From Polaribacter batillariae (GTDB taxonomy: Bacteria > Bacteroidota > Bacteroidia > Flavobacteriales > Flavobacteriaceae), in the NCBI RefSeq assembly GCF_017498485.1, contig NZ_CP071795.1:2542001-2606000 (forward strand): a stretch of 64,000 bases of DNA, read 5' to 3'. The notes beneath the pieces are model-generated. The model saw nothing but the letters and a program-made list of their open reading frames with translations, was not told the DNA's origin and made no database searches. This document shows, piece by piece, positions 13,626 through 27,880 of this stretch. Both the position numbers and the translations under genes were made by a program. Numbering within the stretch: the first letter of the stretch is position 1; the number at the start of each line of letters is the position of its first letter.

Positions 13626-13784
13626 TTATCCTTTCTCCATTTCTAATTTTCTTGATCTATCGACACATTTTGGTCTGGTAGGTCTTTTTACTATAGTTCC
13701 ATCGTCACCCACGTTTCCACCAAAAATTGTAGAGGGGTTCGTTAATTTTGAAATTGAAAATTTTTCTAATTTTAGTTTACTCAT
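13626..13784 (-). CDS. RiPP precursor peptide candidate, 52 residues
   Basis: The ORF begins MSKLKLEKFSISKLTNPST and reaches IFGG at residues 20-23, a leader of the kind seen in Bacteroidota peptides modified by LanB dehydratases (basic start, I-x-K-L-x-N, Gly-Gly end). The core would be residues 24-52: it begins NVGDDGTIVKRP, has three Thr/Ser (Thr30, Thr36, Ser44) and a single Cys40, and ends KLEMEKG. Dehydration targets are therefore present, but at most one thioether ring could form. It lies downstream of the regulator gene and upstream of the S8 protease on the same strand. Start and stop are clear; function is inferred from leader and context. Confidence 0.7.
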   Translation of the reverse strand: MSKLKLEKFSISKLTNPSTIFGGNVGDDGTIVKRPTRPKCVDRSRKLEMEKG

Positions 13785-14201: not shown

Positions 14202-15398
14202 TCATAGTTTAATCCTGTTTTCAAATATAGCCAAAAATTGGTTAAGAATGATACCCCAATTTCTAATAGGCAATGTCCATTTTTTTGTTGATTCTCTCAA
14301 AGCTAAAAATACGGATTTAATTACAGCATCATCTGTTGGATATGAGAGTTTGTTTTTAGTGTATTTTCTAATTTTCCCATTTAAGTTTTCAATTAAATTT
14401 GTGGTATAAATAATGGTTCTGATTTCTAATGGGAAATCGAAGAAAACAGTGAGTTCATCCCAATTGTTTTCCCATGATTTAATGGCATAAGAATATTTAG
14501 AGTTCCATTTATTTTTAAAGTCTTCTAAGGCTGCTTTTGCTGCTTCTTTTGTAGGAGCTGTATAGATTTGCTTCATATCTCTTGTAAAGGCTTTTTTATC
14601 TTTCCAGACTACATATTTACAAGAGTTTCTGATTTGATGAACCACACATATTTGTGTTACTGAATTGGGAAAAATAGTTTTAATGGTGTCTGTAAATCCG
14701 TTTAAATTATCAGTTGCTGTAATTAAAATGTCTTGTGTTCCTCTGGCTTTTATGTCGGTTAAAACGCTCATCCAAAAAGAGGAAGATTCGTTTTTTCCTA
14801 ACCAAAGTCCTAAAACTTCTTTTTTACCATCTACTCTAAGACCAACAGCAATGTAAATTGTTTTATTGATGACTTTGGAGTTTTCACGAACCTTAAAAAC
14901 GATGCCATCCATCCATACAATCAGATAAGTAGCTTCTAAAGGTCTATTTTTCCAAGCAATAATGTCAGCTGTAATTTTATCTGTGATTCTAGAAATGGCT
15001 GAACTAGAGATGTTAAAATTATACAATTCCCGTATTTGTTCTTCAATATCTGTAGTACTCATTCCTTTGGCATATAAAGAAATAATCAGGTTTTCAACTC
15101 CATCTGCAGTACTTTCTCGCTTTTTAATAAGCATTGGATTGAAAGTAGCATCGCGATCTCTTGGAACTTTTATTTTAGTTTCTCCTAAATGCGTCTTTAT
15201 TGTTTTGGTTCCATAGCCATTTCGTGAATTAGGATTGTTGCTTTTTTGATGCTTATCGTAATCTAAATGCGCATCTAATTCGCCTTCTAAAATCTTTTCT
15301 ACACCACGTTTGTGCAGTTGTTCTATAAAACTGGTTAGTTCTGAACCTGTTTTAAATTGTTTTAAAAATTCTTCGTTTAATAAATCTTCTGGTTTCAT
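14202..15398 (-). CDS. IS256-family transposase
   Basis: The 398-residue protein has the transposase-mutator fold. The catalytic residues of the DDE set are visible: Asp164 in WMDGI, Asp230 in ATDNLNGF and Glu337 in [10 protein letters not shown]. The N-terminal region has the usual SRNGYGTKT and [10 protein letters not shown] motifs. Length is normal and there is no frameshift, so the element should be able to move. It is transcribed in the same direction as the gene it interrupts. Confidence 0.97.
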
Positions 15399-16908: not shown

Positions 16909-17745
16909 CTATTTATTTCCATATCTAATATATTCTGATTTATATTTCCTAAATAAAAAATCATAAAGCATCATTTCATATAAGCGCTGTTTTGATCTGA
17001 AACATCTATTAATACTCATGTGTATAAAACTTGCTAATAAATTATTTATTGAAACGTGTAATTTTTCTTCTTTTTCTAGCATCAAAAGCCTTTCCATAAT
17101 CTCTTTTAATTGAGTTTTTTCTGATAAGTTAAAATTATTTTCGACCAATAATAGGGATTCTAATCTTCTGTATTTAGAACTTAGCTCTTTTCTAATGGTT
17201 TTTTCAACATCAAATTCTTCTTTAAATTGTTTTTGCATTCTGTCTAAAAATAAAATGGCGTCATCATCCGTAAAATTAAAAGAATTTATTAGACATTCTA
17301 ACCACTTAAAGATATTTAAAAAACGATCTTCATCATTTTTAGCGTTTTTTATTACTTCAATAATTAGTTTACTGTCAAAATGAAAAAAAATCTCAGCATT
17401 TTCTATAGTATTATTTCCATATCTTTCTAATTCTCTTTGGTAGGTTCCTAGTTGAACGTCCCAAACTTGTTTATTCGTTAGAAATGGGTTCAAAATATTT
17501 TTTACAGTTATGAGTACTTTCCCCAAATAATTAATATCTAATAATTTAATTCGAAATCTTAAATGAGGTTCTGGGTCTGAATATCTTATAAAAAACCATT
17601 TATCAATTATTTTTTGTGCTATTAAATCTTCTGTTAAAGGTTTTATAACTTCTAATAGAATAATATCTGCAGTTTTTACACCACAATATATTTTGTAATA
17701 CAACCATTTATCTCCAACAACAAAAGTGCTTTGTATATTATTCAT
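16909..17745 (-). CDS. Thiopeptide-type dehydratase C-domain protein (SpaB_C-like)
   Basis: The 278-residue protein is the stand-alone glutamate-elimination half of a split class I (LanB-type) dehydratase. The diagnostic block WFFIRYSDPEPHLRFRI is near residue 51, and QLGTYQRELERYG near 100 matches the conserved R-E-RYG region. It would remove glutamate from glutamylated Ser/Thr of the precursor to leave dehydroamino acids. It overlaps the dehydratase N-domain gene by 8 bp upstream and the regulator gene by 14 bp downstream, so all three are one operon. Confidence 0.88.
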   Translation of the reverse strand: MNNIQSTFVVGDKWLYYKIYCGVKTADIILLEVIKPLTEDLIAQKIIDKWFFIRYSDPEPHLRFRIKLLDINYLGKVLITVKNILNPFLTNKQVWDVQLGTYQRELERYGNNTIENAEIFFHFDSKLIIEVIKNAKNDEDRFLNIFKWLECLINSFNFTDDDAILFLDRMQKQFKEEFDVEKTIRKELSSKYRRLESLLLVENNFNLSEKTQLKEIMERLLMLEKEEKLHVSINNLLASFIHMSINRCFRSKQRLYEMMLYDFLFRKYKSEYIRYGNK

Positions 17746-19961
17746 TATTGGCTTGTTTTAATTTTGCCTCATTATAGAAAGAAACTACAAATTGGTTGCA
17801 GTAAGAGGCATCTTTTTCATCTTTTATAAATTCATTGTCTAAAAATAAAAATTCTTCTAATATAAACTTTTTTCTATTTTTAATAGTATCTAATAACATT
17901 CTAATTGATATTTCACTTTTAAGATCAATCAACAACTTATTATCTCCTTCCACTAACTCCACAAAATCAGGAATTAAGTTTTCCTTTTGCCAAATTTTAA
18001 TTGATGCTAATAAATTTTTATTTGCAAATAATTTTTGAAATACAGCTACTTCTATATTCCATTTAGCTTTAGAGAAAATCATATTTTCAAATTCTATCCG
18101 AGGTAAAAAGGTGTGCTTTTTTAAGATTTCATTCCAACTGAAACCAACACTAGACCTTTTATTTTGTGTTTGTGTGTCACACAAAAATTGATAAATAGGT
18201 AAAAGGATTTCCACTATAATTATGGGCATTTCCCAAACGAGGTAAAATTTCTTTATCTAGCTTTTTAGAACGTAAAATAATTGTATCATTTTTTACAGAA
18301 ACTAAAATATCTTCAATAGATATTTGATATTCTGGTAATACACTAGATTTTCCTAAATATGGGATTTCATATTCTCTAAAACTAGGTCTTTGTAGGATGT
18401 TTCCTGTTCTTGCTTCTGGTAAATGTATAATTTCAGCAAGAATTTTATCTGAATTTATAGTCTCTTCTACTTTTGCTATTTTATGAATAGTTTCTGATAT
18501 TTCCTTATTACACTGTCCAAATCTACCTAATAAATAGGTAGCACTTGCACCACCTATATTCTTTATAAAAATGGTTTCTTTATTTTTTATTTTATAAATT
18601 TCAATAATAGAAGACAGAGTCTCTGGTAAATCATGCCAAGAAGTTGGTAATTCTTTAAAGTCTTTTTCTGTAAGTGATATTGTATACGCTCTGTTTTGAG
18701 TTACATTCACTAACTTCTTTTGTAAAATAGTATCAACATCTGTCCAAATAACGTGTTTGTATCTTTTATTGTTTCCAATAGAAACTAAACCCTCTAATAA
18801 GTTATTACTATCTTCTCTTTTATCTCCATAGCCAATACCTGTTTCTGTATCTAAAGCAAGGTTTAAAGAGACTTCAGATTGTTTAAAACGTTTTAAAAAG
18901 TCTCTTTTAAACTGCTCTATATTTTTATTAGCAGTTGGCAAGGTCATTTTATTGAAAAGAATAAATGCTTTTTTTAGTTGTTTCTTAATATCTTTATTTA
19001 AAGTATTACTTTTAAATGAAGTAAAAGTATCTGTCTGAAATAGGTATTTAATATCTAAATCTGGAACTAAACTTTTAGCATTAAAAATTATTTCTTTATA
19101 ATCATCTGTTTGATTCCCTATTTTTAAATCTAAATGATGTAATTGCTGTTGTAAATTAGATAGTTGTTTTTGTATTGTTGATGCTTCAGGTATTTGTTGA
19201 ATTCGAGTTATTAGACTTTTAAAATAATCTTCTCCAGTAACCGTAATTTCTAATTCTGAAACTAAAATCTGATTGTCAATTAAATCTTCAATAAAACCAA
19301 TAGCCTCTTCTTTTGTAATTTCATCATCAACTAAAAGATTAGACAATTCTAAAACGGTTTTACCATTCTTAGCTTCCTTTAAAATAGTTTCTAAATATTC
19401 TGAGTACACCAAACCTTCTAAAGAATAGCTCCTTCTCTTTTTCTCTAAACTATATTCTACATACCTGTAATGCTCTCCAATTTTGTAAATACTTGTATTA
19501 GAATAAAACAAAACGTTTTCTCTAATAATTTTATTTTTTAATAATTCTTGAAATAACTGATTCAAAAAAGTAGTATCAAAGCGAGTAGCTCTTTTATAAT
19601 TTTGTTTTTTATTTAATTGAATAGTTGTTTCCAAGCCAAATTCTCCTACTCCACAAGAAGCAAATAATCCAAAAGGTGTGCAACGTGCAGAAATGCGAAT
19701 AAGATATTTTAAGATAGCAAATTGTAATTTTTCAATCTTTTTATTCGCTTTAATTTTTCCTTTTTCCCACTTTACAATTTGATTAAATAATTCTGGGGAA
19801 GCAAGATACAATGCTTCTCTAAAAACAGGGTTTAAAACAACCCCTTTTAACTCTTTATCTGAAATTATTCTAAAATTATTCTGAAAACTAATTGGAAATA
19901 ATGGTGTTCTTACACAGTAATTATTAAATAATTGATATGTTTTTTGTTCTTTTTTTAGCAA
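17738..19961 (-). pseudogene. LanB-type dehydratase N-domain, frameshifted
   Basis: This large gene encodes the glutamylation half of a class I lanthipeptide or thiopeptide dehydratase, which uses glutamyl-tRNA to activate Ser/Thr. Family motifs: CVRTPLFP near the start and ARCTPFGLFASCGVGEFG near residue 95. The first frame runs 19961-18177 and ends after LPRLGNAHNYSGNP. The second frame (to 17738) continues with LPIYQFLCDTQTQ. One extra base in AATCCTTTTACC around 18201-18209 explains the break; the repaired protein would be about 740 residues, normal for a split enzyme. The start is TTG, 12 bp beyond which no better codon is seen. Real mutation and sequencing error cannot be told apart here. 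Confidence 0.88.
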
Positions 19962-20157: not shown

Positions 20158-20280
20158 ATGGGAAAATTATTTATGAAAAGAAAAACAATATTAAAAATAT
20201 TTTTGCGCAAAAATGGTCATAAAACTTTGAGTGACCTAAAAGAAATCTTAGAAAACAATAATTATAATAAATGCATTTAA
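20158..20280 (+). CDS. Small ORF, 40 residues, unknown
   Basis: An ATG ORF of 40 residues, basic at the N-terminus (MGKLFMKRKTILKIF) and acidic later (LSDLKEILENNN), ending with Cys. It has no Gly-Gly leader and does not resemble the two peptides downstream. Being first in the plus-strand arm, it could be a small regulator, a leader ORF, or chance. Confidence 0.3.
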   Translation: MGKLFMKRKTILKIFLRKNGHKTLSDLKEILENNNYNKCI

Positions 20281-20333: not shown

Positions 20334-20507
20334 ATGAAAACATTAGAATTAAATCAAATGGAAACTATCTATGGAAATGGGCAAATGAGAGATTGCATGG
20401 TAGATGGTGCATTAGTAACAGCAGGATTATTAACATCATATTTTGGAGGGTGGACTATTGCTCTTATGGGGCTTTCATTTGCAGCAAAAGATGGCTGCTT
20501 TGATTAG
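20334..20507 (+). CDS. Double-glycine-type bacteriocin-like peptide 1
   Basis: The 57-residue peptide starts at the ATG at 20334; an upstream TTG-like extension is unlikely. Leader residues 1-15 (MKTLELNQMETIYGN) have Leu4, Met9, Ile12 and Gly14, matching the C39 leader pattern at -12, -7, -4 and -2. The core (42 residues) has Cys21 and Cys54 near its ends and a hydrophobic Gly/Ala-rich centre (GALVTAGLLTSYFGGW, ALMGLSFAA), as in pore-forming unmodified bacteriocins. Processing and export by the C39 ABC proteins downstream is likely. The Gly-Asn cleavage pair is not the standard Gly-Gly. Confidence 0.75.
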   Translation: MKTLELNQMETIYGNGQMRDCMVDGALVTAGLLTSYFGGWTIALMGLSFAAKDGCFD

Positions 20508-20537
20508 TAAATTTAATAATAAATAAACTTTAATAAC

Positions 20538-20711
20538 ATGAAAAAAATAAAAGGAATATCAATTATAACAATTTGTGCAACAATATTAATTCTTTATTTG
20601 TTTACTGATATAATTGAGGAAAATTTATTTTCTAAAATTTTGATATGTGTTTTACCCTTTTTTATGTTAATAGGTTACAAAAACTTTAAAAAAAATGAAA
20701 AACTTAAATAA
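20538..20711 (+). CDS. Small two-helix membrane protein, candidate immunity
   Basis: The 57-residue protein has two hydrophobic helices (about 7-23 and 33-46) separated by DIIEENLF and ends with a Lys-rich tail. It lies between the two bacteriocin-like peptides and its 3' end overlaps the second one by 17 bases in another frame. Size, location and topology fit a bacteriocin immunity protein, but no family match is visible, so that role is inference. Confidence 0.55.
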   Translation: MKKIKGISIITICATILILYLFTDIIEENLFSKILICVLPFFMLIGYKNFKKNEKLK

Positions 20712-20862
20712 CACAAAAATGCAGTCTGTAATAGCAGGCTACTCAGCTTGGGCTTGTTTTACGTCTGTACCTAAACTTATTTTAGATGGAGCTTCTGGCC
20801 CATCAGGTGCAGCCTGGATTGGTTACGATATAGCATTAATTAAATGGTGTTGGAACAATTAA
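20695..20862 (+). CDS. Double-glycine-type bacteriocin-like peptide 2
   Basis: The 55-residue peptide starts inside the end of the previous gene. The leader (MKNLNNTKMQSVIAG, 15 residues) matches peptide 1 in length and in Leu4, Met9 and Val/Ile12; it ends Ala-Gly. The 40-residue core has Cys21 and Cys52, three Trp outside that pair or near it, a GASGPSGAAW turn region and ends KWCWNN. Two Cys near the ends, as in peptide 1, suggest one disulfide each. Together they look like a two-peptide system. Confidence 0.75.
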   Translation: MKNLNNTKMQSVIAGYSAWACFTSVPKLILDGASGPSGAAWIGYDIALIKWCWNN

Positions 20863-20918: not shown

Positions 20919-21560
20919 ATGCTTAAATTTAAAAATTATATATTGTTTGCTATAATCATTTTTATTATTGCCTTCATATTGTTTTTGTCTGAGAACATTA
21001 TCAATACAGATGAGTTTTTTTATAATTCTTATGCCGAAGACTACACCAGAGATCAACTGAATAATTACATTGCTAGAAGAGAGAAATGGTCATGGGTTAT
21101 TTACGCTATTGTTCCAATAGTTGTTTTAATAAGAACGAGCCTAGTATCAATATGTCTAAATATTGGTGTCTTTATCTACAATACAGAAAATAAAATAAAG
21201 TTTAAACATTTTTTTAAAATAGCATTGTTGGGTGAGTTTATTTTAGCTTCAGTTAGTTATTCTAAATTTTTTTATTTCTACTTAATAAAAACTGAATATA
21301 CTTTATCAGATATAAAGCAATTTTATCCTTTAAGTTATACAAACTTTTTAGATTTAAAGAATATAGAACCTTGGTTAGTTTATCCTTTGCAAACTATTAA
21401 TTTATTTGAGATAGCCTATTTTTTTGTATTAGTTTACGGTTTGCATAAAATTTTGAAAAATAAATATGCTAAAAGTTTTGAGATTGTTGCAGTAAGTTAT
21501 GGGTCTGGTTTAGCAATTTGGTTAGGTCTAGTTATGTTTTTAACTTTAAATATGTCTTAA
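20919..21560 (+). CDS. Five-helix membrane protein of bacteriocin operon
   Basis: The 213-residue protein has about five membrane helices (near residues 7-24, 60-85, 98-118, 155-178, 190-210) and a periplasmic or cytoplasmic loop with TRDQLNNYIARREKW after the first. I do not recognise a family with certainty; it looks somewhat like Yip1-type proteins. It starts 16 bp after the hairpin and ends 1 bp before the redoxin gene, so the pair is surely co-translated. It might aid immunity or hold the redoxin or exporter. Confidence 0.6.
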   Translation: MLKFKNYILFAIIIFIIAFILFLSENIINTDEFFYNSYAEDYTRDQLNNYIARREKWSWVIYAIVPIVVLIRTSLVSICLNIGVFIYNTENKIKFKHFFKIALLGEFILASVSYSKFFYFYLIKTEYTLSDIKQFYPLSYTNFLDLKNIEPWLVYPLQTINLFEIAYFFVLVYGLHKILKNKYAKSFEIVAVSYGSGLAIWLGLVMFLTLNMS

Positions 21561-21561
21561 A

Positions 21562-22074
21562 ATGAAAAAGAAGATAAGAATTTTTGTTCTAATACTAATT
21601 GCAAGCATTTTTGGGTTTTTAGGTTTTAAGATAAATAGTAAACTAAGCCATAAAAAAGAGGTTACAGCTCGTACTAAAACAATACCAAGTTTTTCTTTTT
21701 CAGATACAAAAGGCAATATTTATTCAAATAAAAATTTACCTAATAAATCTGTAATTTTTATTTATTTTAATTCAGGTTGTGATTATTGCCAATCAGAAGC
21801 AATAAAAATACAAGAACGGTTAAAAGATTTTAAAGAAGTACAGTTGGTATTTGTTTCTTTTGAAGAACAAGAAGGTATCATTGCATTTGCAAAACAATAC
21901 AATTTGCATAACAAAGAAAATGTAGTTTTTCTAGAAGATAAACAAGGAGTTTTTTCACAAATATTTGATGTAAATTCTATACCATATATTGTTGTTTATG
22001 ATAAAGACAAAAACTTTCTTCAAAAATTTAAAGGAGCTACTAAAATAGACAGCATTTTAGCTGTTTTAAAATAG
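21562..22074 (+). CDS. Thioredoxin-like redoxin, membrane-anchored
   Basis: The 170-residue protein has an N-terminal signal anchor (residues 5-23) and a periplasmic thioredoxin fold of the AhpC/TSA-TlpA kind. The redox motif is CDYC in FNSGCDYCQSEA near residue 72; the cis-Pro is in DVNSIPYIVVYD near 146. It follows the five-helix gene by 1 bp. Both bacteriocin-like peptides have two cysteines, so forming or correcting their disulfides is a reasonable role (inference). Confidence 0.85.
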   Translation: MKKKIRIFVLILIASIFGFLGFKINSKLSHKKEVTARTKTIPSFSFSDTKGNIYSNKNLPNKSVIFIYFNSGCDYCQSEAIKIQERLKDFKEVQLVFVSFEEQEGIIAFAKQYNLHNKENVVFLEDKQGVFSQIFDVNSIPYIVVYDKDKNFLQKFKGATKIDSILAVLK

Positions 22075-22165: not shown

Positions 22166-24319
22166 ATGAATCAAAAACTAATAACAAAAACACATATTCT
22201 ACAGCATGATCAATCAGATTGTGGTGTAGCTTGTTTACTTTCTTTAATACAATATTATGGAGGTAGTAGTTCTTTAGAAAAATTAAGAGAATTAAGTGGT
22301 ACAACTAAACAAGGTACTACTTTGTTAGGTCTATACCAAACTGCAAATAGCATAGGCTTTACAGCTGAGGGTAATGAAGCAGATATTCAAGCTATAATAG
22401 ACCATGGAGCTCCAGTAATTTTGCACGTAGTAATAGAAGAAAAACTACAACATTATGTAGTTTGTTATGGTTTTGAAAATGATACATTTATTATTGGAGA
22501 TCCTGGAAAAGGAATTGTCTATTATTCAAAAGAGGAATTAGATAAAGTTTGGGTATCTAAAAGTTGTTTAACGTTAACGCCTAATAACAACTTTATAAAA
22601 GCGACTGAAACTAAAAAATCTAAAAAAGAGTGGTTCCTAAAATTATTAAAAGAAGACAAACAACTTTTAATAATTAGTATTGTTTTAGGTATTGGTATCG
22701 CAGTTTTAGGAATGGCAATGTCTGTTTTTTCTCAGAAATTAATAGATGACATTTTACCATCACAAAACACTACAAAATTAGTTTTTGGTATTGGTTTACT
22801 TACTTTTTTATTATTAATTAGAGTTGGTTTTTCTACTTTACGTGAGTTAATGTTAATTAGGCAATCTAAAGATTTTAATAATAGAATTATAGATTCTTTT
22901 TACTCTTCATTATTACATTTACCAAAACCTTTTTTTGATACTCGTAAAATAGGAGAATTGGTAGCAAGATTAAATGATACTAATAGAGTACAAAAAGTTA
23001 TAAAACACATTGCTAGCAACTTTATAATAGACATTTTAGTGGTATTGGTTTCATTTGGTTTTTTATTCTTTTATTCTTGGCAAGTTGGTGTAATTGTGTT
23101 GGTAAGTTTACCTATTTATTTTTTAATTATTTATCGTTTTAATAGTAAAATTATAAAATCTCAAAAAGAGGTAATGCAGAGTTACGCTTTAAATGAGAGT
23201 AATTATATAAGTTCTATGCAAGGTATTGCAACTATTAAAAATTATAATAGGCAATCTTTTTTTCAAAAAGTAAATCAATTAGTTTTTGGAAACTTGCAAA
23301 ACAAAATTGTAGATCTTGGTAAGATAAATGTTCGTTTATCTCTGTTTGCAGGTATTGCAGGTGTATTATTTTTAATGGCAATTTTGTCATACACTTCTTT
23401 GCAAGTGTATAATCAACAAATGCAATTGGGAGAATTAATGGCTATTTTAGGTATCGCAGGCTCTTTGTTACCTTCAATAACCAACTTAGCTTTAATATCG
23501 ATACCTATTAACGAAGCAAAAATTGCTTTTAATAGAATGTTTGAGTTTACTTCCATAGAAAAAGAAAAACAAGGCGAATTTGTGCTAACATCTTTTGAAT
23601 CTTTAGAAATTGAAAATCTTTCATTTCGTTTTGCTGGTAGAAGTCAATTATTAAAAGATGTAAATTTATCTATTAAAAAGGGAGAAATTTCGGCTGTAGT
23701 TGGGGAAAGTGGAAGTGGAAAAAGTACACTTGGACAAATTTTTCAAAAGTTTTACAATTTTGAAAATGGAAATGTAATTGTTAATAAAAAAACCAATCTT
23801 GATGATGTAAAACTAAGTAATTGGAGAAATTTAGTTGGTGTTGTACCACAAGATATTACCATTTTTAATGGTAATGTATTAGATAATATTTTATTAGGAC
23901 AAGAAGATAAACCCGAAAATGTTGTTGCTTTTTGTCAAGAATATGGCTTTGAAGAATTTATAAAAGATTTTCCACAAGGGTATGCAACTATTTTAGGAGA
24001 AGAAGGCGTAAACTTATCTGGTGGTCAAAAACAAATTATTGCGTTAGCTAGAGTTTTATACAAAAAGCCTGAACTTTTAATTTTAGATGAAGCTACTGCA
24101 GCAATGGACAGGAAAACTGAAAAATTTAGTATAGAATTAATTTCTAAATTAAAAGAAAACATGGGAGTGCTGTTTATTTCTCATCGTTTAGAAACCTTAA
24201 AAAAATACGCAGATAATATCTATGTTTTAGAAGGTGGTAAAACGGTTGTACAAGGAAGCCATAAAGAATTGTTAGAAACTTCTAATTTTTATAGTGATTA
24301 TTGGAAAGAACTGGTTTAG
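22166..24319 (+). CDS. C39 peptidase-containing ABC exporter 1
   Basis: I choose the ATG at 22166 over the TTG at 22133 because the C39 domain then starts normally. Domains: C39 peptidase (Cys19 in DQSDCGVACLL, His in LQHYVVCYG near 92, Asp in IGDPGKG), six-helix ABC membrane domain (about 170-440), and ATPase with Walker A GESGSGKST, signature LSGGQKQ and Walker B LLILDEAT. It would cut the leader of the double-glycine peptides and export the cores. All catalytic residues are present. Confidence 0.93.
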   Translation: MNQKLITKTHILQHDQSDCGVACLLSLIQYYGGSSSLEKLRELSGTTKQGTTLLGLYQTANSIGFTAEGNEADIQAIIDHGAPVILHVVIEEKLQHYVVCYGFENDTFIIGDPGKGIVYYSKEELDKVWVSKSCLTLTPNNNFIKATETKKSKKEWFLKLLKEDKQLLIISIVLGIGIAVLGMAMSVFSQKLIDDILPSQNTTKLVFGIGLLTFLLLIRVGFSTLRELMLIRQSKDFNNRIIDSFYSSLLHLPKPFFDTRKIGELVARLNDTNRVQKVIKHIASNFIIDILVVLVSFGFLFFYSWQVGVIVLVSLPIYFLIIYRFNSKIIKSQKEVMQSYALNESNYISSMQGIATIKNYNRQSFFQKVNQLVFGNLQNKIVDLGKINVRLSLFAGIAGVLFLMAILSYTSLQVYNQQMQLGELMAILGIAGSLLPSITNLALISIPINEAKIAFNRMFEFTSIEKEKQGEFVLTSFESLEIENLSFRFAGRSQLLKDVNLSIKKGEISAVVGESGSGKSTLGQIFQKFYNFENGNVIVNKKTNLDDVKLSNWRNLVGVVPQDITIFNGNVLDNILLGQEDKPENVVAFCQEYGFEEFIKDFPQGYATILGEEGVNLSGGQKQIIALARVLYKKPELLILDEATAAMDRKTEKFSIELISKLKENMGVLFISHRLETLKKYADNIYVLEGGKTVVQGSHKELLETSNFYSDYWKELV

Positions 24320-24396: not shown

Positions 24397-26586
24397 TTGA
24401 AAAAATTTCCACATTATAAACAGTTAGACAGAAAAGATTGTGGTTCAACTTGTTTAAAAATAATAGCTAAACATTTTGGTAAAGTTATTTCTATTCAAGA
24501 ATTAAGAAAACTTACAGAAACCACAAGAGCTGGTAGTAGTTTGTTAGGTTTAAGTGAAGCTTCAGAAAAAATAGGTTTTAGAAGCTTAGGAATAAAAATA
24601 TCTGTAGAAAAATTAGAAAAAGCACCTTTACCATGTGTTTTACATTGGAATAAAAACCATTATGTTGTTCTATATAATATTAGAAAAGGTATTTTTTATA
24701 TTTCAGATCCAGCTCATGGTTTATTACAATATAATAAAGTAGATTTTATAAAAAATTGGATCGGTAACAATGCGAATGAAACAACAGAAGAGGGAGTTGC
24801 TTTACTGTTAGAACCCACACCAAAATTTTACAATTCAGAATTTGACACCAAAGAAAAATCTTTAGGTTTTTCTTTCTTGTTTAAATATCTTTTCACCTAC
24901 AAAAAATTTCTTATTCAGTTAGTAGTAGGTTTATTAGCAGGTAGTTTACTACAACTTATTTTTCCATTTTTAACACAGAGTATTGTAGATGTAGGTATTA
25001 ATAACCAAGACATTCATTTTATTTATTTAATTCTTTTTGCTCAATTAGCTTTATTTTTAGGAAAAACAGCAATAGAGGTTGTAAGAGGTTGGATATTATT
25101 ACATTTAAGTACTCGTATTAATATTTCATTGGTTTCAGATTTTTTTATCAAACTAATGAATCTTCCTATTGCTTTTTTTGACACCAGAATGACAGGAGAT
25201 ATTTTACAACGTATTAATGATCATAAGCGTATTGAAAGAATTTTAACCACTTCTTCACTAAACGTATTGTTTTCTATGGTAAATTTAATTGTATTTAGTT
25301 TTGTACTTGCCTATTATAATTGGCAAATATTTACCATCTTTTTAGTTGGTAGTATTTTCTATTTTCTTTGGATAACGCTTTTCTTAAAAAAACGAAGAGA
25401 TTTAGATTACAAACAATTTTCTCAAGTAAGTCAAGAACAATCTAAAGTAATTGAGCTAATAAATGGAATGCAAGAAATTAAGTTGCACAATGCAGAAAAA
25501 CAAAAACGTTGGTCTTGGGAATATTTGCAAGCAAGGCTATTTAAAATTTCTATAGAAGGTTTGGCTTTAGAGCAATACCAAAATGTAGGATCTGGTTTTA
25601 TTAACGAACTTAAAAATATTTTAATTACAGTACTATCTGCTAAATTAGTAATTAATGGGGATATTACTTTAGGAATGATGTTAGCAATTACTTACATAGT
25701 TGGTCAATTAAATTCTCCTATTGCTCAATTGATAAGCTTTGTAAGAGAGCTACAAGATGCAAAAATTTCTTTAGAGCGTTTGTCTGAAATTCATGAAAAA
25801 GAAGATGAAGAACCCATAAATGAAGAACGAATTTCTGAAATTCCTGTAAACTCAAATATTGATCTAAATAAGGTTTCTTTTAGATATATTGGTTCAGATC
25901 AATTGGTGTTAAAAGATTTAGATGTAGTAATTCCTTCAAATAAAATTACAGCAATTGTTGGTGTAAGTGGAAGTGGAAAAACAACGCTAATGAAATTGCT
26001 ATTAAAGTTCTATGAACCCAATTCTGGAGAAATTGAAATAGGCAATTATAATCTAAAATCTATTTCACAAAAAACTTGGAGAAATGAATGTGGTGTTGTA
26101 ATGCAAGAAGGTTATATTTTTAGTGATACCATTGCGAATAATATTGCAGTTGGTGAAGATTATGTAGATAAGAAAAAATTAGCACACGCTGTTGATGTTG
26201 CCAATATTCAAGAATTTATTGAGAGTTTGCCACTTTCTTATAATACTAAAATTGGTATGGAGGGTGTTGGTTTAAGTACAGGGCAAAAACAACGTTTATT
26301 GATTGCAAGAGCTGTTTATAAGAATCCTAATTATTTATTTTTTGATGAAGCTACCAGTACTTTAGATGCAAATAACGAAAAAGTAATTATGGAAAAACTA
26401 CATACTTTTTTTGAAAATAAAACGGTTTTAGTGATTGCACATAGATTAAGTACTGTAAAAAATGCGCATCAAATTGTAGTCTTAGATAAAGGGAAAATAG
26501 TAGAAGTCGGTAACCATAAATCACTAATTGAGAAAAAAGGAAATTATTATCATTTAGTAAAAAATCAGCTAGAATTAGGGAAGTAA
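24397..26586 (+). CDS. C39 peptidase-containing ABC exporter 2
   Basis: The 729-residue protein begins with TTG and has the same order of domains as its neighbour: C39 peptidase (Cys in DRKDCGSTCLK near residue 14, His in NHYVVLYN near 88, Asp in SDPAHGL), membrane domain, ATPase with Walker A GVSGSGKTT, Walker B YLFFDEAT and a variant signature LSTGQKQ. It is clearly diverged from exporter 1, so this is not a recent duplication. The pair may work as a heterodimer or serve different peptides. Confidence 0.93.
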   Translation: MKKFPHYKQLDRKDCGSTCLKIIAKHFGKVISIQELRKLTETTRAGSSLLGLSEASEKIGFRSLGIKISVEKLEKAPLPCVLHWNKNHYVVLYNIRKGIFYISDPAHGLLQYNKVDFIKNWIGNNANETTEEGVALLLEPTPKFYNSEFDTKEKSLGFSFLFKYLFTYKKFLIQLVVGLLAGSLLQLIFPFLTQSIVDVGINNQDIHFIYLILFAQLALFLGKTAIEVVRGWILLHLSTRINISLVSDFFIKLMNLPIAFFDTRMTGDILQRINDHKRIERILTTSSLNVLFSMVNLIVFSFVLAYYNWQIFTIFLVGSIFYFLWITLFLKKRRDLDYKQFSQVSQEQSKVIELINGMQEIKLHNAEKQKRWSWEYLQARLFKISIEGLALEQYQNVGSGFINELKNILITVLSAKLVINGDITLGMMLAITYIVGQLNSPIAQLISFVRELQDAKISLERLSEIHEKEDEEPINEERISEIPVNSNIDLNKVSFRYIGSDQLVLKDLDVVIPSNKITAIVGVSGSGKTTLMKLLLKFYEPNSGEIEIGNYNLKSISQKTWRNECGVVMQEGYIFSDTIANNIAVGEDYVDKKKLAHAVDVANIQEFIESLPLSYNTKIGMEGVGLSTGQKQRLLIARAVYKNPNYLFFDEATSTLDANNEKVIMEKLHTFFENKTVLVIAHRLSTVKNAHQIVVLDKGKIVEVGNHKSLIEKKGNYYHLVKNQLELGK

Positions 26587-26587
26587 A

Positions 26588-27880
26588 ATGTCAAACAAAA
26601 TTAAAGATATAGAATTAAGAAGTGAAGAGGTGCAAGAAATTCTAACAAGAACTCCTGTTTGGATGATTCGTTGGGGAAACACACTTTTTCTTCTATTAAT
26701 TGTAATACTTTTGCTTTTATCTTGGTTTGTAAAATATCCAGATATTGTTTCTTCTGAAGCTATTATAACCACCATAATACCTCCTCAAAAAGAATTTGCT
26801 AGAGCTACAGGTAAAATTGATACTTTATTTGTAAAAAATGCTGAAAATGTATTAGATGGAAAGCCTTTAGCAATTATAGAAAATACTGCTAATTACAAAG
26901 ATGTATTCTTATTAAAATCAATAACAGATACAATTACTATTTCAAAAGATGCCTTTAATTTTCCAATTAATAAGTTGCCTATATTATTTTTGGGAGATAT
27001 TGAGACTAGTTTTGATCTATTTGAAATTAATTACATTCAATACACTTTAAATAAAAAGTTAAATCCGTTTTCTTATGAGACTATTGCAAATAAAAACTCT
27101 ATTGCAGAACTAAAAAGAAGGTTAGTTAATTTACAATCTCAAAAATTATTAAATAAAAAAGAGTTAGAGTTTAATCAAAAAGATTTAAAAAGAAGTAAAT
27201 CATTGTTTGATAAGGGGGTAATTTCTGAAAAAGAATTTGAAACCAAACAACTAGAATTTTTACAATCAGAGAGAAATTATAAAAATATGGCTTCCTCTAT
27301 TTCTCAATTAAGAGAAGCTATTTCTAATACCAATAAAACCTCTAAAGGAACAGAAATTTCTCAAATTAGAGAAGAAATGACATTATTTAAAAATGTTATT
27401 CAATCCTTTAACCAATTAAAAAAATCTATTAAAGATTGGGAAATGTTATATGTGTTAAGTTCTAAAATGGAAGGCAAGGTTTCATTTTTAAATTATTGGA
27501 GTCAAAATCAAACAGTAAATCAAGGAGATTTAGTTTTTACAATAATTCCAAAAGAGAACTCTTCTTTTATTTCTAAATTGAAAACTCCTGCACAAAATTT
27601 GGGTAAAGTTAAAATAGGGCAAACAGTAAACATTAAACTCCAAAACTATCCTGATTATGAATTTGGAGTTTTAACAGGAAAAGTAAATCATATATCTGAA
27701 ATTTCAGATAAAGAAGGCTTTTATACCATTGATGTTTCTTTGCCTAAAAAATTAATTACTTCGTACAAGAAAGAAATAGAATTCAAACAAGAAATGCGAG
27801 GAACTGCTGAAATTATTACAGAAGATTTACGTTTAATACAACGTTTCTTTTATCAATTTAATAAAATGGTAGATAGGTAG
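26588..27880 (+). CDS. HlyD family secretion adaptor
   Basis: The 430-residue protein has one N-terminal membrane helix (about residues 32-50), an N-terminal half-barrel, a long coiled coil (about 170-290, rich in Lys, Glu, Leu) and a C-terminal beta-barrel region (GKVKIGQTVNIKLQNYPDYEFG). It is the periplasmic adaptor connecting the ABC exporters to an outer-membrane channel of the TolC type, which is not encoded here. It starts 1 bp after exporter 2. It is the last gene of the island. Confidence 0.92.
   Translation: MSNKIKDIELRSEEVQEILTRTPVWMIRWGNTLFLLLIVILLLLSWFVKYPDIVSSEAIITTIIPPQKEFARATGKIDTLFVKNAENVLDGKPLAIIENTANYKDVFLLKSITDTITISKDAFNFPINKLPILFLGDIETSFDLFEINYIQYTLNKKLNPFSYETIANKNSIAELKRRLVNLQSQKLLNKKELEFNQKDLKRSKSLFDKGVISEKEFETKQLEFLQSERNYKNMASSISQLREAISNTNKTSKGTEISQIREEMTLFKNVIQSFNQLKKSIKDWEMLYVLSSKMEGKVSFLNYWSQNQTVNQGDLVFTIIPKENSSFISKLKTPAQNLGKVKIGQTVNIKLQNYPDYEFGVLTGKVNHISEISDKEGFYTIDVSLPKKLITSYKKEIEFKQEMRGTAEIITEDLRLIQRFFYQFNKMVDR

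Follow-up and report, generated by a model that had tools for sequence, protein, structure and literature searches.

The peptide genes and their surroundings

The window, a 64,000-nucleotide stretch of the Polaribacter batillariae contig NZ_CP071795.1 (positions 2,542,001 to 2,606,000), carries two small genes for predicted bacteriocin precursors, P1 and P2, followed on the same strand by genes for a membrane protein, a thiol oxidoreductase and a C39 exporter. The features, by position in the window, are these.

16909-19961, minus strand: LanB-type lanthipeptide dehydratase in three ORFs; the N-terminal domain shifts frame near 18180-18230, with a separate ORF for the C-terminal domain
20200-20235, plus strand: upstream element TTTTTGCGCAAAAATGGTCATAAAACTTTGAGTGAC, 36 bp, a 14-bp perfect palindrome TTTTTGCGCAAAAA plus an imperfect inverted repeat, ~100 bp before P1
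20334-20507, plus strand: P1, first bacteriocin precursor, 57 aa (leader 15 aa, core 42 aa)
20538-20711, plus strand: 57-aa protein with two hydrophobic segments, candidate immunity protein; no family above cut-off in Pfam or NCBIfam
20695-20862, plus strand: P2, second bacteriocin precursor, 55 aa (leader 15 aa, core 40 aa)
20919-21560, plus strand: 213-aa membrane protein with five predicted transmembrane (TM) helices, counterpart of the five-TM protein of bacteroidetocin loci
21562-22074, plus strand: thioredoxin/AhpC-TSA-type thiol oxidoreductase with a CDYC motif (Pfam AhpC-TSA 4e-12, NCBIfam ResA 2e-12)
22166-24319, plus strand: C39-peptidase ABC exporter of bacteroidetocin type (Pfam Peptidase_C39 2e-32, ABC_tran 3e-28)
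24397-26586, plus strand: second C39 ABC exporter (Pfam, NCBIfam)
26588-27880, plus strand: HlyD-type adaptor (Pfam, NCBIfam)

The ORFs, leaders and cysteines of the two precursors can be read directly from the DNA. In P1 the leader MKTLELNQMETIYGN is followed by the core GQMRDC...KDGCFD, with cysteines at core positions 6 and 40 and the type R-x-C...GCF(D). In P2 the leader MKNLNNTKMQSVIAG precedes YSAWAC...IKWCWNN, with cysteines at 6 and 37 and the end type ...CWN. The earlier note on this DNA had described two ORFs with matched 15-residue leaders and cores of about 40 residues with a Cys near either end, and that description stands. The leaders fit the bacteroidetocin leader length of 15-16 aa. 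The P1 core lies within the bacteroidetocin range of ~42-53 aa and the P2 core falls slightly short of it; two cysteines in each core reach the bacteroidetocin minimum of at least two per peptide. The proposed cleavage pairs, Gly-Asn (P1) and Ala-Gly (P2), are present, and neither is GG. In P1 a further Gly follows Gly-Asn, so that a cut after residue 15 is indistinguishable from one after residue 16. Neither peptide has an above-cut-off family in Pfam or NCBIfam, and an AF2 model of P1 is a two-helix hairpin of low confidence (pLDDT 62).

A leader profile was trained on 32 other peptides, with both P1 and P2 kept out of training. Among 249 candidate starts in the window it ranks P1 first (25.6 bits) and P2 second (8.3), the next start scoring 3.0; the top score among opposite-strand decoy ORFs (n=1678) is 7.2. 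The P1 leader is far beyond chance. The P2 leader by itself is marginally above chance, and P2 is backed mainly by its position and by related pairs. Its narrow lead over the top decoy is the point in favour of chance ORFs or decayed genes, an explanation made extremely improbable by the first and second ranks of the two starts and by relatives in several families that keep the cysteines and end motifs.

The ORF between P1 and P2 (20538-20711) was absent from the earlier note; its last 17 nt overlap the start of P2. By analogy it is likely to be the immunity protein. Gram-positive class IIb two-peptide bacteriocins as a rule have a single small membrane immunity protein for each pair (PMC6957408).

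Downstream, the AF2 model of the 213-aa protein has five long helices able to span a membrane (pLDDT 87.6). Foldseek against the PDB gave no fold match for it (best E 0.67), and Pfam and NCBIfam gave no family above cut-off. Judged by its domain, the oxidoreductase is a probable disulfide-forming enzyme, and the adjoining exporter probably cleaves the leaders of P1 and P2 and exports both. The second exporter and the HlyD adaptor (24397-27880) are probably a separate export unit; HlyD relatives occur in 0 of 105 related loci (described below). This exporter/HlyD pair may belong with the lanthipeptide-side genes.

Upstream, the 20200-20235 element is single-copy in the 3.89-Mb genome and recurs ~100 bp ahead of the first peptide gene in five loci of Tenacibaculum type (L029, L030, L032, L033, L040). 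Possible roles are those of an operator, a promoter or part of a mini-ORF; the L032 copy has an in-frame stop if read as a mini-ORF. Beyond it lie the LanB ORFs, a split due either to gene decay or to an error in the assembly. Their N- and C-domain frames, close by on the opposite strand, raise the alternative that P1 and P2 are lanthipeptide precursors modified by this dehydratase. LanB relatives, however, lie near only 1 of the 105 related loci and the copy in the window is split over two frames, and lanthipeptide modification of P1 and P2 was rejected on these grounds. The LanB side also has its own precursor-like ORF, and a thiol oxidoreductase suits disulfides; the alternative is very improbable. 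The sole related locus with LanB alongside is L033. The precursor-like ORF (13626-13784, minus strand) encodes 52 aa with a leader-like stretch ending FGG and is a possible lanthipeptide precursor. Between it and LanB lie a Mutator-type (IS256-like) transposase (14202-15398) and an AraC-type HTH ORF.

Bacteroidetocins and other known systems

In the bacteroidetocin region described by Coyne et al. 2019 (PMC6671954), a small peptide with its 15-aa leader is encoded together with a five-TM protein, a C39 ABC exporter and a thiol oxidoreductase, and the four genes sufficed to give activity in E. coli. Clusters of this type are known from gut Bacteroides. The window has all three of the non-peptide genes of that set. 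Because the gene set agrees with that of Coyne et al., the locus is assigned to the bacteroidetocin type (class IIf); the assignment is well supported at the level of sequence, the likeness to Bd-A and Bd-B being one of gene set and of leader and core description. The earlier proposal of bacteriocin precursors from a Gram-negative marine-type bacterium is likewise well supported, and gains a class that had not been named. Shared with bacteroidetocins are the 15-aa leader, a core of ~42 aa, the TM/oxidoreductase/C39 set in one locus and a Bacteroidota host.

The differences are several. Bacteroidetocins have one peptide, whereas the window has two unlike ones. Bd-A and Bd-B carry four cysteines per core, the window peptides two. 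Bacteroidetocins are basic, and the window cores are nearly uncharged or acidic. The window peptide genes lie upstream of the TM gene, unlike those of bacteroidetocins. Finally, the Bd-A and Bd-B loci are without an immunity gene, and tested bacteroidetocins were without an immunity protein (PMC6671954); the window has a candidate immunity ORF. The target of bacteroidetocins is BamA (PMC8546649). The same genome has a second bacteroidetocin-type locus (L005/L089, G000:C1:326500-342500) with one 61-aa peptide containing four cysteines, in which a 93-aa ORF replaces the two-helix ORF (L089).

Gram-positive class IIb bacteriocins resemble the window in having two unlike, adjacent leader peptides served by a single exporter, a candidate immunity factor in the form of a small membrane protein, and enrichment of GxxxG in the first peptide. 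In contrast to them, the window has a Gram-negative host, a five-TM protein, a thiol oxidoreductase and, in each of its peptides, a disulfide-type Cys pair; no sequence relationship to them was found. A Gram-negative precedent for a two-protein system is CdzC/CdzD of Caulobacter, a Gly-rich glycine-zipper bacteriocin with an inner-membrane immunity protein. Its proteins differ from those of the window in being larger (86 and 84 aa), secreted by a type I system and retained on the cell surface, and the description consulted mentions no thiol oxidoreductase or five-TM protein (PMC5380434). Class IIa pediocin-like bacteriocins share a double-glycine-type leader, two cysteines, a length of ~40 aa and, in P1, the letters YGNG. 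P1 was rejected as pediocin-like: its YGNG straddles the cleavage site rather than lying at the mature N-terminus, and is missing in other P1-type peptides.

Paired and single peptides in related loci

Used as direct queries against 249 family genomes, P1 and P2 returned weak matches only, and the membrane protein was therefore taken as the anchor. Its relatives lie on 61 contigs of named genomes and in further loci; one record only is on a plasmid. The TM protein, oxidoreductase and exporter occur together in 75 of 105 related loci. In related loci the exporter, 40-85% identical, comes after the oxidoreductase. A peptide with a scoring leader lies just upstream in 52 loci, as two peptides in 20 and as a single one in 32, although some of these 'single' loci hold a second peptide with a weak leader. 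Paired loci are about as common as single-peptide loci, and the pair is a variant rather than the rule.

The small two-helix ORF was seen in 36 of these 52 loci, mostly as a single copy with one or two peptides. The 20 two-peptide loci contain one such ORF in 15 cases, two in three and none in two. No significant covariation between the small ORF and the peptides emerged among the related loci.

These counts bear on the alternative that P1 and P2 are two independent single-peptide bacteroidetocins sharing one exporter, each active alone and perhaps on different targets. Bacteroidetocins A, B and D each act as a single peptide (PMC6671954). About half of the related loci are single-peptide, so one peptide can suffice elsewhere, and the two peptides of one locus (L161) have identical Cys spacing, as a tandem duplicate would give. 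Two independent toxins are nevertheless rather unlikely: most two-peptide loci have one two-helix ORF, not two, and the first and second peptides are position-specific families matched across loci, where free reassortment would otherwise be expected.

Adjacent leader-peptide pairs recur in many Bacteroidota families, and 38 pairs were collected. Pairs were picked by adjacency, not by core similarity, with A denoting the first core and B the second. Two loci with large arrays of another peptide type (L050, L052) were excluded from the pair tests; in three others (L031, L035, L057) one peptide with a low leader score or missed start was added by hand. In L149 and in L153 one membrane protein gene is accompanied by two A-B pairs in tandem, which in L149 lie downstream of that gene.

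In P1-like peptides R-x-C lies close to the N-terminus, and the C-terminal CF is followed by 0-2 residues. The strict form of this motif occurs in 10 pairs. In seven, B has CW within its last nine residues (the window itself, L057, L058, L064, L098, L151, G1211); in the other three, all from one genus (L153, G1159, G1101), B is of another, mutually similar form. Association of R-x-C in A with CW in B gives Fisher P=0.003, a value uncorrected for kinship and for motifs picked after inspection. The earlier note would have been undermined by homologous loci that regularly encode one peptide, and this turned out to depend on how homology is drawn: about half of the machinery-defined loci do, whereas strict P1-type peptides have an adjacent partner in 10 of 10 cases. 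Loss of the cysteines, its other point of vulnerability, did not materialise, since each core has exactly two in 35 of the 38 pairs. A looser relative, G1153 (RQC...DCW), has no adjacent partner.

The seven CW-type pairs range over Flavobacteriales and one Dysgonamonadaceae bacterium (Bacteroidales). Membrane proteins of these loci are ~35-43% identical to that of the window, and the loci with the closest backbones (~60% identity to the window's membrane protein) have other pair types. Distant backbones that share the pair type, together with close backbones that carry others, fit cassette exchange of the peptide pair.

Matched inheritance and a two-component reading

Similarity among A cores follows similarity among B cores. 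For 20 pairs the correlation is r=0.32 (P=0.0002); neither core shows a significant correlation with the export backbone (P=0.12), and the partial correlation is r=0.31 (P=0.0008). For 30 pairs the partial correlation is r=0.37 (P=0.0002), and there is a weak correlation between the membrane protein and the second core alone (r=0.17, P=0.02). For the 29 pairs that remain without near-duplicates, r=0.24 (P=0.001), with a partial r=0.24 (P=0.0006). The full set of 38 gives r=0.62 (P=0.0002), but it adds one more genus through a first-peptide profile and contains near-identical pairs, so that the non-redundant figure is the conservative one. Co-inheritance of the pair is a property of the compared sequences themselves, and the A-B match is not accounted for by relatedness of the membrane proteins. 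Linkage alone can make neighbouring genes co-inherited, so matched inheritance is no proof of joint action.

Across the 38 pairs, A and B are distinct families (label swapping P=0.0002; leave-one-out assignment correct for 35). Tryptophan makes up 1.3% of A cores and 4.7% of B cores. GxxxG is enriched in A (94 against 58.5 expected, sd 6.0; +5.9 sd) and weakly in B (50 against 40 expected, sd 5.3; +1.9 sd). These A/B pairs show the class IIb trait of two unlike, neighbouring peptides that are inherited in matched combination.

The difference in tryptophan content also suits the idea that only one peptide is the toxin, its partner being secreted as a helper or signal, such as an induction peptide or a protector, with a common leader and exporter. 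C39 exporters of Gram-positive bacteria also secrete peptide signals, which lends this idea some plausibility. Against it, A and B are alike in length class and in their two-cysteine pattern, and neither a receptor nor a two-component regulator could be recognised next to P1 and P2. A division into toxin and helper is improbable.

The reading preferred here, moderately probable in our judgement, is that the locus is a two-component variant of the bacteroidetocin type (class IIf). The earlier note had suggested a two-component bacteriocin on the basis of two unlike cores with a common leader. That suggestion gains on the side of evolution, from 38 pairs, position-specific families and co-inheritance independent of the backbone; joint function is what we infer from them, and the pairing suggests that P1 and P2 may depend on each other. 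Whether the locus represents a wider branch is evenly poised: a widespread, undescribed two-component bacteroidetocin group in which matched A/B pairs are swapped as units independently of the backbone, usually with one two-helix immunity protein. A literature search for paired bacteroidetocin-like peptides found none.

The proposed pathway is as follows. (i) P1 and P2 would be made as precursors. (ii) The C39 domain of the 22166-24319 exporter would remove both leaders, and the exporter would secrete the cores. (iii) The thioredoxin-like protein probably helps to form one disulfide per core, between the cysteines near each end. (iv) The five-helix membrane protein may assist export or maturation. 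(v) Mature P1 and P2, nearly uncharged, Gly/Ala-rich and probably helical, would jointly hit the envelope of related Bacteroidota cells. (vi) The two-helix protein encoded between them would be the likely source of immunity. Leader cleavage, the disulfide and killing of Bacteroidota are proposed by analogy with the bacteroidetocin literature.

Bacteroidetocins have been published as lone peptides whose loci lack immunity genes. Should many of them operate in matched pairs alongside a candidate immunity protein, the search for and testing of these Bacteroidota toxins would change, and one synthetic peptide by itself might seem inactive. The natural set of cognate and non-cognate pairs offers a way to ask how two-peptide toxins recognize each other, and the two-helix ORF is a testable candidate for the missing self-protection.

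Small HTH-like proteins are encoded upstream of the peptides in three loci (L041:315-683, L042:3073-3502, L034:403-681). At the C-terminus of these proteins a GG-leader-like motif precedes the conserved stretch F-x-x-S-(P/F)-F-M-R-R-N; this may be a regulator joined to, or lying beside, an exported signal peptide.
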